29,528 nucleotides of DNA from a virus. Location: positions 1-29,528 of the IMG/VR virus record IMGVR_UViG_3300034198_013568. One strand, 5' to 3'. The notes under the pieces were generated by a model. That model saw only the letters and a program-made list of their open reading frames with translations. It ran no database searches and was not told the DNA's origin. The position numbers and the translations under genes were made by a program. Numbering within the stretch: position 1 is the stretch's first letter; every line of letters starts with the position of its first letter. Positions 1 to 13,151 of this stretch are shown in pieces.

Positions 1-136
1 CGTCTATTCCGAGCTGTCAGCTACATCGAAGGGAATTCTTTATCCTCACTGCTTCTTACAGAGGCTACGATAAAGGTTTCTTCTTTGATTTACGCGGGTG
101 TAAGTTGCGCCTTCTTCTTTAGTCAGACTGACTATA

Positions 137-211
137 CCCCGAAGCCTTGCTCTGATAATAACTTGAGAATTTAAGCCCTCAAGAGGCGTTTAGAGTATTG
201 GACTTTCGGGG
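137..211. ncRNA. Nested stem-loop, structured RNA element
   Basis: CCCCGAA (137-143) pairs perfectly with TTCGGGG (205-211). Directly inside, GCCT (144-147) pairs with AGGC (184-187), and a perfect 6-bp hairpin CTTGAG/CTCAAG (162-167 with 178-183) lies within that. A 17-nt single strand (188-204) sits on one side only. Three nested perfect helices are unlikely by chance in A+T-rich phage DNA. The coding strand of the RNA is not decided by these pairs alone. Confidence 0.45.
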
Positions 212-268
212 CTTATTCTTTGCCTAGTTGTATTTTAATTTTATTTGGATAAATTAAGATACCTTAGG

Positions 269-318
269 CCCGCCATCTTCCCCCTTGAAATATAGGTGAC
301 TAGAGGGCGGGTATTTTT
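269..318 (+). terminator. Possible rho-independent terminator, rightward
   Basis: CCCGCC (269-274) pairs with GGCGGG (306-311). After one A/G mismatch the stem continues with TCT/AGA (276-278 with 302-304). The plus strand then reads GTATTTTTTG, a short U-run. The 23-nt loop is long for a classical terminator, so this may instead be one helix of the structured RNA region. No rightward gene lies upstream within the window. Confidence 0.35.
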
Positions 319-423
319 TGCCCAGTTTTTTCACTGTTAGGGTCATCAGAATCTAGTCTTTCCTAAAAGTCAAAAGCAATTTTTTATTCGAGTTGTCCCT
401 TTTGTCTATTCTCGATCGTATGT

Positions 424-549
424 CCCCCGCTGGTGCGATCCTTTCGGAGTCGTTCGGGGGCACTTTTCCCGCTCTATCCCCCGCTACGCAGTGAATAGAA
501 CCTAACGCATTTCTGCGCTTTTCTATGCACATTTTTTGCATATGCATAG
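424..549 (-). ncRNA. Group of hairpins with GNRA tetraloops
   Basis: Three hairpins lie close together. (1) CCCCCG/CGGGGG (424-429 with 455-460) encloses an inner stem (436-441 with 446-452, one bulged base) whose loop on the minus strand is GAAA. (2) CGCA/TGCG (506-509 with 514-517) also has a minus-strand GAAA loop. (3) CTATGCA/TGCATAG (523-529 with 543-549) is a 7-bp stem with a 13-nt loop. The 9-mer TCCCCCGCT occurs twice (423-431 and 477-485). GNRA loops on one strand only argue for a minus-strand transcript. The RNA class is unknown. Confidence 0.4.
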
Positions 550-598
550 AAATACGAAGAAATTAAACATAACAACCGAACGTGTCGATTGAGTAATA

Positions 599-704
599 GG
601 AAAAGGAAGGATTTGAACCTCCGATTAGAGCGTTGCCGCTCATTGTTACCATCCACAACCTAAGTTGCTTAGGAGCTTTTCAAGGCTCTCCACATTACTT
701 TTCC
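599..704 (-). ncRNA. tRNA-like RNA with six stem-loop arms
   Basis: Read on the minus strand, the element opens with GGAAAAG and closes with CTTTTCC, a perfect 7-bp acceptor stem. Just inside the 3' strand is a canonical T-arm: GGAGG, loop TTCAAAT, CCTTC. Between them, after a 9-nt linker, come four stem-loops with no spacer at all: GAGC-CTTGAAAA-GCTC (688-673), CTAAG-CAA-CTTAG (672-660), GTTGT-GGATGGTA-ACAAT (659-642) and GAGCG-GCAA-CGCTC (641-628). Then come TAATC and the T-arm. At 106 nt it is longer than normal class II tRNAs and has no recognisable D-arm. The last hairpin sits where the long variable arm of tRNA-Ser or tRNA-Leu would be. The first loop contains CTTGAAA, as in tRNA-Ser(UGA) anticodon loops, though with one extra base. 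No CCA is encoded; the 3' flank is TATT. It may be a highly divergent tRNA, an interrupted tRNA, or a tRNA mimic within a larger RNA. Confidence 0.5.
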
Positions 705-713
705 ATTGAATCT

Positions 714-785
714 ATTCGACTCAGCGAGAATGTCTTTCTTCCTAAAACATTCTCACAAAGGCGAATCCGGGGATTTTAACCCCCG
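714..785 (-). ncRNA. Two-hairpin RNA element upstream of the tRNA-like RNA
   Basis: ATTCG/CGAAT (714-718 with 762-766) encloses two 7-nt internal-loop strands and a perfect 8-bp stem GAGAATGT/ACATTCTC (726-733 with 747-754) with a 13-nt loop. Two bases further is a 5-bp G+C hairpin CGGGG/CCCCG (768-772 with 781-785) with an 8-nt loop. On the minus strand this last arm reads somewhat like a T-arm followed by an acceptor strand, but no matching 5' acceptor is present, so I do not call it a tRNA. It lies just 5' of the tRNA-like element on the same presumed transcript. Confidence 0.4.
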
Positions 786-790
786 AACCC

Positions 791-841
791 AAAAAATCAA
801 TACTTAAACAGAAAAGTTCAAAAATCGTGAAGTTAAGTATT
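791..841 (-). terminator. Possible leftward terminator after the accessory genes
   Basis: A perfect 9-bp inverted repeat, AATACTTAA (799-807) with TTAAGTATT (833-841), is followed on the minus strand by GATTTTTTGGG, a U-run directly after the stem. The stem is A+T-rich and the loop is 25 nt, so it would be weak. It lies about 110 bases beyond the stop of the last leftward gene and before the structured RNAs. It could end the accessory transcript or only attenuate it. Confidence 0.35.
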
Positions 842-949
842 AAGAAAAAGATTAAAAAGTTTTTTTCTATAATACAAGGAAAAAGTAAAAAAGTTTACCA
901 GGTTGCTACATCTAGTAAAATCAAGGCTTGGTCTATACTACATTCTTTA

Positions 950-11789: not shown

Positions 11790-12117
11790 ATTAAATCACT
11801 CAGGCTGGAGAGTTCCTGAGTATAAAGTTCTTTTAAAACCTGACGTTGTAGAAGAAAAAACAAAAGGCGGCATCATTCTTACGCAAAAAATACAAGAAGA
11901 TGAGCAAAATGCCAAGCTAGAAGCGACGATTGTTGGAATTGGAGCTAAATCTTTTGATTCTGGCACTTGGGAAGATAAGCCAAATTTAGGCGATAGAGTA
12001 ATGATCCGTAGATATGCGGGGATTATTCTTTCAAAAGATCAAACTGCGGATAGCCATGAATATCGAATCGTGATGGATCGTGAGATTGTCGCAATTAAAG
12101 AAAATAATAAAAAATAA
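11779..12117 (+). CDS. GroES-like co-chaperonin
   Basis: The product has 112 residues, close to the length of phage Cpn10 proteins (host GroES is about 97). VLLKPDVVEEKTKGGIILTQ (residues 18-36) matches the first strand and mobile loop, with GGIIL (30-34) corresponding to the GroEL-contacting G-G-I-V-L. ATIVGIGAKS and LGDRVMIRRYAGI match the central barrel strands, and EYRIVMDREIVAI (about 94-106) the conserved C-terminal strand. A phage-encoded GroES likely caps host GroEL to fold the capsid protein, as T4 gp31 does. Its place between portal and scaffold supports this. Confidence 0.85.
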   Translation: MKNKLNHSGWRVPEYKVLLKPDVVEEKTKGGIILTQKIQEDEQNAKLEATIVGIGAKSFDSGTWEDKPNLGDRVMIRRYAGIILSKDQTADSHEYRIVMDREIVAIKENNKK

Positions 12118-12131
12118 ACTGAGTAAATATT

Positions 12132-13151
12132 ATGACTGAAATTTTAGACACATCAACAGAAATCGACATTGATTTAGGAATTGGTTCGTCGCCAATTGAT
12201 TCAATTGAGGTTAAAGAAGAAGTTAAAAAGATTCCACCTAATCCGATATTTGAGGATATGGAGGAAGATGAGATTGAAGAGGAAGAATTTGCTAAATCTC
12301 CAACTCAAATCAGAAAAGAAAAAGAACGCGAATTTTATCAAACTCTTTCTGGAGCGGAAAAAGAAGCCTGGAATGAAGGCTGGAGAAAAGGGTCGTTTTT
12401 TAAAGGTTTAAACAAAGACGGAACTCCACGATCAGAAATTTCTGCTGAAGAGTTTTTAGAAAGACGTAAACAAATTGCACCGATTAATAATGAAAGAACT
12501 CGAACATTAGGCAGAGAAAAAGCAGAAGCCGAAGAACGAGCAGCCGCTTTAGAAAGACAGGTCCAAGAGCTTCTTAAGTACAATAAAACTAGAGAAGAAA
12601 GAGAAATGAAATCTTCTCGATCAGTTTTAGATCAACAAGAAGACCAAGCAATTCTTGAAGGCGACATTGAAAGAGTTAGAGCAATTCGCGCACAAAGAGA
12701 ATCACTTGAAAGAGAAAAATTTACTTTTTCAGAAGAGCCTAAGCAAGAAGCAAATGTTTTTACTCCAAGAGAACAAAACATATTTAAAGAATGGGCTGCA
12801 GAAAATATTTGGTTTCATAGAGATCTAAAACTTCAAGCCTATGCGTCTAATATGTTTAATGAGTTACACGAGAACAATCCTCGTCAGTCATTAATTGAGA
12901 AATTGGAAATGGTGCAAGAAGAAATTGAAAACCGTTTTGGCGATAAAATTGGAAGAACTACACGAAAACCAATTAGAGTTGATTCAGGTTTAAGAGGAAT
13001 GCAATCCAGCCAGCCTCAAACTTTAAGTTATAACGAAATACCAGCCGACGCAAAAGCAATGTGTGAAGGATTCATTAAAAAAGGAAAAATGAGTCCTGAA
13101 GCAGCCAAAAAGCTTCGTGCCGAGTATGTAAAAGAATATTCAACTAATTAA
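12132..13151 (+). CDS. Scaffold (capsid assembly) protein
   Basis: The product has 339 residues and is strongly charged, with an acidic N-terminus (EDMEEDEIEEEEFA) and long helical stretches (REKAEAEERAAALERQVQEL) of coiled-coil character. The C-terminal part is basic and helical (AAKKLRAEYVKEY), where scaffolds typically contact coat protein. It has no catalytic motif. The position between portal and capsid genes and the composition fit an internal scaffold that guides prohead assembly and then leaves. A protease motif is not apparent. Confidence 0.65.
   Translation: MTEILDTSTEIDIDLGIGSSPIDSIEVKEEVKKIPPNPIFEDMEEDEIEEEEFAKSPTQIRKEKEREFYQTLSGAEKEAWNEGWRKGSFFKGLNKDGTPRSEISAEEFLERRKQIAPINNERTRTLGREKAEAEERAAALERQVQELLKYNKTREEREMKSSRSVLDQQEDQAILEGDIERVRAIRAQRESLEREKFTFSEEPKQEANVFTPREQNIFKEWAAENIWFHRDLKLQAYASNMFNELHENNPRQSLIEKLEMVQEEIENRFGDKIGRTTRKPIRVDSGLRGMQSSQPQTLSYNEIPADAKAMCEGFIKKGKMSPEAAKKLRAEYVKEYSTN

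Follow-up and report, generated by a model that had tools for sequence, protein, structure and literature searches.

A tRNA-like, apparently non-decoding RNA element in the structured non-coding islands of uncultured tailed phages

Results and discussion

A 106-nt element on the minus strand of a tailed-phage record (positions 704 to 599 of the window, which is the whole 29.5-kb stretch of DNA analysed) is, judged by its letters and predicted folds, tRNA-like and non-decoding, and it is probably derived from a tRNA. Comparison with its relatives shows a homologous element with a closing helix that compensatory change appears to have preserved and a body that can be lost. The element lies in an island of exchangeable structured modules. 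This island is of greater interest than the element itself and may represent a new class of large, tRNA-associated phage RNA.

Structure of the element

The minus strand of positions 599 to 704 (GGAAAAGTAATGTGGAGAGCCTTGAAAAGCTCCTAAGCAACTTAGGTTGTGGATGGTAACAATGAGCGGCAACGCTCTAATCGGAGGTTCAAATCCTTCCTTTTCC) starts with GGAAAAG (698-704), which pairs with CUUUUCC (605-599) in a perfect 7-bp closing ('acceptor') helix. Abutting this helix is a 5-bp T-arm (GGAGG-UUCAAAU-CCUUC, 606-622), which contains one G-U pair and has a canonical loop of the form UUCRANY. The closing helix is followed by U-AUU instead of an encoded CCA. The perfect helix, the canonical T-arm and the missing CCA are as a first-pass annotation of the DNA had read them.

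The same annotation proposed a six-arm architecture, with four stem-loops packed without spacers between acceptor and T-arm. From 5' to 3' these are a possible D-arm-sized hairpin (GAGC-8 nt-GCUC, 673-688), a possible hairpin at the position of the anticodon arm that lacks an anticodon loop (CUAAG-CAA-CUUAG, 660-672), GUUGU/ACAAU (642-659) and a variable-arm-like hairpin (GAGCG-GCAA-CGCUC, 628-641). When the 106-mer was folded alone, the six-helix arrangement was indeed recovered as the minimum free energy (MFE) structure (-30.7 kcal/mol, z = -2.2; reached by 4 of 200 shuffles), though its share of the ensemble is 2% and the centroid differs. The four hairpins abut one another in this structure. 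The arms are not spacer-free throughout, as 9 nt precede the first hairpin (2 nt are expected in a tRNA) and 5 nt precede the T-arm. Only GAGCG/CGCUC among the four has a pair probability near 1. Whether there is no D-arm, as had been stated, is a matter of definition: the GAGC hairpin is of D-arm size, but its loop lacks the G18-G19 of a D-arm (CUUGAAAA in the window, CUUAAAAA in the homologue L169).

The T-arm competes with an alternative pairing. The rod helix, whose 5' strand is GGA-GAGCCUU (682-691; partners 621-615 and 611-609), is kept in both copies, where the partner of GAGCCUU is (G or A)AGGUUC, the 5' half of the T-arm itself; the rod helix is incompatible with the D-arm-sized hairpin. 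Its ensemble probability is 0.47 to 0.70, against ~0.3 for the T-arm.

The window holds a single canonical T-arm that abuts a perfect 7-bp helix, and 300 dinucleotide shuffles of the full window produced none; this test is somewhat generous because it was defined after the element had been seen. Rfam model RF00005 (tRNA) scores the element at 30.3 bits (cut-off 29) with 48 nt inserted at the anticodon arm; this match appears only under laxer filters, and default filters gave no match in the window. Together, the shuffles and the RF00005 score indicate that the tRNA-like geometry is real. ARAGORN found neither a tRNA nor a tmRNA in the window.

The 3' half of the element resembles tRNA-like genes with a long arm that lie in phage tRNA arrays (77% identity over 52 nt), and the genes matched contain GCGGCAACGC and GGAGGTTCAAATCCTTCC. 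The label 'tRNA-like' thus stands, both for the non-random acceptor/T-arm geometry and for this 3' half. A variable-arm-like hairpin beside a T-arm also occurs at three other loci (L002, L034 and L038). A 7-nt anticodon loop with U33 is missing from both the window element and the L169 copy. As this loop, the D-loop GG and CCA are all absent and the 3' half is tRNA-like, the element is described here as tRNA-like and non-decoding.

Homologues of the element

Searching IMG/VR with a conserved 17-mer led to L169, in which the one intact homologue found (12101-12218) is 88 to 91% identical to the element and placed as in the window, behind module U (see below). This independent copy rules out an artefact. 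The earlier argument that sequence error is excluded by abutting helices was illogical.

A deleted copy is present in L137, as a stub (GTAACGGGGAAAG-TGATGTGGAGAGCCTT-CCTTTCCCCGTTAC) that has lost ~80 nt of the body and kept the closing helix. It can be derived from the L169 sequence by removing ~80 nt between two CCTT repeats, and its flanks are 93 to 99% identical to L169. A covariance model built from the two intact copies scores the stub at E = 3e-6. Across 46 loci the model gave no further clear copy; L140 (E 0.003) and L126/L127 (E 0.21) were rejected as weak hits that fall on ARAGORN-called tRNAs, and L212 proved a false relative. In L126 (3093-3175) and L127 (3542-3624), both on the plus strand, ARAGORN calls a tRNA-Ile directly after the terminase gene, with an unusual anticodon (AAU) and a T-loop of UUAAAAU; the anticodon assignment is doubtful.

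Other searches were negative. INPHARED phages gave no match to the window or L169 sequence, and GTDB genomes none to two exact patterns. In IMG/VR, GGATGGTAACAATGAG was found in L169 and otherwise in unrelated stretches, GTRATGTGGAGAGCCTT in L169 and L167 (same record as L137) and otherwise in unrelated stretches, and GTGGAGNGCNTTNAAANGCNCC in L169 plus two unrelated stretches. Among the matches listed for a T-arm pattern search, most were tRNA-rich contigs. No description of this element was found in the literature on tRNA-like phage elements. Represented elsewhere in these searches by a single intact homologue and a single deleted copy, the element would be a rare tRNA-derived form.

Helix by helix, the comparison favours the outer part of the structure. 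Between the window and L169 the closing helix carries two two-sided changes (A-U to G-C and U-A to C-G), which support it. It reaches 13 bp in L137 as well as L169, and the perfect 7 bp of the window continue, past a one-nucleotide bulge, into an AAU/AUU extension; a limit of 7 bp is not confirmed. The T-stem has one change, from G-U in the window to A-U in L169. The stems of GAGCG/CGCUC (identical hairpin in L169, with a pairing probability of ~1 in both copies) and GAGC/GCUC are invariant; the latter has pair probabilities of 0.40 in the window and 0.30 in L169. The CUAAG arm (0.51 and 0.13) becomes CUAAA-CAACU-UUUAG in L169, with a longer loop; strictly by the alignment it is broken, and it re-forms with a small shift. 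The GUUGU/ACAAU arm (0.44 and 0.06) has a C-A mismatch in L169 and is not supported. The four packed stem-loops are therefore not upheld as a set. As the middle arms are unsupported in the only intact homologue, 'six arms' is not established. Covariation is thin throughout, because only two intact copies, 91% identical, are available.

The island and its modules

The window encodes terminase, portal and head-closure proteins, and the best portal match in the phage collection has 33% identity. The element sits in a gap of ~950 nt that has no large conserved frames and lies downstream of genes, probably early ones, on the minus strand. Relatives were gathered through their terminase; in these, small genes come after the equivalent gap on the same strand, along with genes for replication, one of which encodes a DnaB-like helicase (named from sequence).

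These gaps are non-coding islands of 0.7 to 1.45 kb in a group of uncultured phages. Eleven loci (window 1-949 on the minus strand, L121, L124, L130, L137, L153, L157, L159, L160, L161 and L169) share short structured modules in changing combinations, together with real and degenerate tRNAs. All module coordinates below are on the minus strand of the window. Module U (712-806), upstream of the element, consists of two strong hairpins with a consensus fold and is kept in L169 and L137 (84 to 87% identity); at 724-792 a GGGG-GTTAAAAT-CCCC hairpin is followed by a long hairpin. Module M2 (497-563), a hairpin plus a GCGCAGAAAUGCG hairpin, is present in 9 of the 11 loci. Module M1 (471-505) has a conserved loop (ACUGCGUAGCGGGG, near-constant ACUGCGUAGCG) on a covarying stem in which changes are matched: stems paired with their own partners give 48 pairs summed, against a maximum of 45 in 729 re-pairings. 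Module M3 (416-463), CCCCCG...CGGGGG around CGAAAGGATCGCACCAG, is present in 11 of 12 aligned loci and absent only from L137; in L157 its helix is CCCCCA/UGGGGG. Modules X0 and X (1-217) reach the window edge and are 97% identical to L169, and X is also common to L137, L159, L121 and L160. Module Y is found in most of the loci long enough to reach it. The interval between M2 and M3 holds exchangeable cassettes (C1, C2, C3, C4 and C7) or tRNA-like genes, the window version being the shortest.

Non-coding blocks are 87 to 97% identical between the window and L169, two phages whose alignable genes are mostly ~72 to 82% identical, and it is for this reason that the island is put forward as a candidate RNA class. 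The high identity may come from constraint, recent exchange or both. Rfam identified no family other than tRNA in the islands.

Sense-strand T-arms number 3 in 12.2 kb of island and 7 in 296 kb elsewhere. There is a real tRNA-Cys inside the L169 island (12333-12407), and three islands carry degenerate tRNA-like genes that end in CCA. The one in L169 (12647-12726, plus strand) is tRNA-Met-like, with a CAU anticodon, an encoded CCA and a non-standard T-loop (RF00005, 18.1 bits). The one in L121 (3857-3778, minus strand) has an acceptor, a T-arm and an encoded CCA with no recognisable anticodon arm, and weakly matches the tRNA-Sec model (20.9 bits). The one in L157 (~146 nt, minus strand, downstream of M3) starts with GGCGTGA, ends with CCACGCCACCA and looks like a long-insert tRNA. 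In L130 there is a minimal element of ~56 nt (approximately 5869-5814, minus strand), in which a 10-bp helix (GCCAGCGCAG/CTGCGCTGGC) abuts a 4-bp T-arm with a canonical T-loop (UUCGAAU).

Possible roles of the element

Our preferred explanation, favoured tentatively and at somewhat less than even odds, is that the element is a tRNA-derived, non-decoding hairpin domain of the structured island that marks or protects an upstream RNA end rather than reading codons. It would be transcribed from the minus strand together with module U just upstream. The closing helix and T-arm could then present an acceptor/T-arm minihelix to host RNase P or RNase Z, or might do no more than give the RNA a stable 3' structure; both would mark or protect the end of the RNA upstream. 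In L169 a terminator-like hairpin and U-tract lie ~40 nt past the element, and L137 has the same sequence, which fits an end-of-RNA role; this hairpin is absent after the element in the window. The shuffles, the RF00005 score of the window element, the L169 homologue, the L137 stub, the closing-helix changes and the match of the 3' half to long-arm phage genes all argue for such a domain, as do the tRNA-Cys and degenerate tRNA-like genes in other copies of the island and the frequency of sense-strand T-arms there. Against it are the thin covariation, an outer helix of more than 7 bp in the relatives, a T-arm present in ~30% of the ensemble, the missing CCA and the L169 copy, which gave no RF00005 match at E ≤ 1. 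The natural 80-nt deletion in L137 also counts against it: the T-arm is removed, so that the L137 phage does without one, and given the loss of the body the tRNA-like part may be functionless. With its closing helix kept, L137 is a ready-made deletion and a useful natural test.

Two readings are close rivals of this domain with an end-marking role. The element may be a rod-like domain of a larger phage RNA, built from the closing helix, then GGA/UCC and GAGCCUU/AAGGUUC, with the GAGCG hairpin as cap; its resemblance to a T-arm would then be incidental or left over. The MFE and centroid structures of L169 and the centroid of the window are rods, the rod is more probable than the T-arm in the ensembles, the G-to-A change in the T-stem preserves the rod pair as well, and L137 retains only the base of the rod. 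We rate this reading slightly below the preferred one. A T-loop that exactly abuts the closing helix is very unlikely to arise by chance, and the islands are enriched in tRNA-like genes. Among listed complete structures, the window also favours the tRNA-like model (-29.4, the rod having -24.4), the two being about equal in L169 (-36.1 and -35.0). Decay of a tRNA gene to a relic without present function is the less probable of the two rivals. It would account for the body missing from L137, apparently by deletion between repeats within well-conserved flanks, and for the degenerate genes elsewhere in the islands; compensatory changes in the closing helix speak against it. So do long stretches of body that are identical in phages with diverged genes, although recent exchange could also explain these.

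The first-pass annotation had suggested a phage tRNA mimic, a divergent serine-type tRNA or a tRNA with an insertion. As a mimic or decoy, the acceptor/T-arm half of this phage element would occupy a host tRNA-binding protein or a tRNA-cleaving defence enzyme. This is improbable: an anticodon nuclease would have no anticodon loop to cut, the element is lost in L137 and the partner is purely putative. A working tRNA, whether divergent (the serine type included) or insertion-bearing, is largely refuted despite the RF00005 score above the cut-off, as ARAGORN makes no call, neither copy has a 7-nt U33 loop, loop length differs between the copies and the D-like loop lacks GG; it is given very little credence. 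Least credible of all are a coding sequence or chance hairpins. A 60-aa GTG-started frame (474-656) overlaps the element, but by inspection the positions that differ in L169 do not track codons, and shuffles fail to reproduce the arrangement.

Comparison with known RNAs

The element shares with class II phage tRNAs and the RF00005 model a canonical T-arm that abuts the closing helix (7 perfect bp in the window), as well as a variable-arm-like hairpin of the GCGGCAACGC type. It differs from a tRNA in having no anticodon arm, GG-bearing D-loop or CCA, in ~19 extra nucleotides and in an outer helix that exceeds 7 bp in its relatives. The features of tRNA-Sec are not found either, and the RF01852 model gave no match to the window element.

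In tmRNA an acceptor and T-arm occur without an anticodon arm, together with a G3-U70 pair and a tag reading frame. The element has the same acceptor and T-arm combination; however, it is far too short, lacks a tag frame and has A-U (G-C in L169) as its third acceptor pair. With no ARAGORN tmRNA call in addition, tmRNA was rejected. Mitochondrial t-elements are tRNA-like processing signals. As in the element, tRNA-like acceptor/T-arm halves lie in non-coding spacers and decoding is not required; they belong to other organisms, and a processing role for the element is only proposed here.

GOLLD and ROOL are large structured phage RNAs that are often found near tRNA islands (PMC12286853). GOLLD has a conserved 3' region and a less conserved, variable 5' region, with tRNAs sometimes in the linker (PMC12286853). 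The islands match neither Rfam model and are known here as sequence, not as one RNA or fold. A further mark of GOLLD and ROOL is their multimeric, RNA-only cage. The layout of the islands resembles that of GOLLD, with core modules, variable cassettes and tRNAs nearby. By this analogy, and as an unlikely extension, the element could be an exchangeable domain in large mosaic phage RNAs of a class not yet described, which would work like GOLLD or ROOL. Such an RNA would have a conserved core (M2, M1, M3, X and Y) and interchangeable cassettes; among these would be real tRNAs as well as tRNA-like domains without an anticodon, which host tRNA-maturation enzymes may cut or cap.
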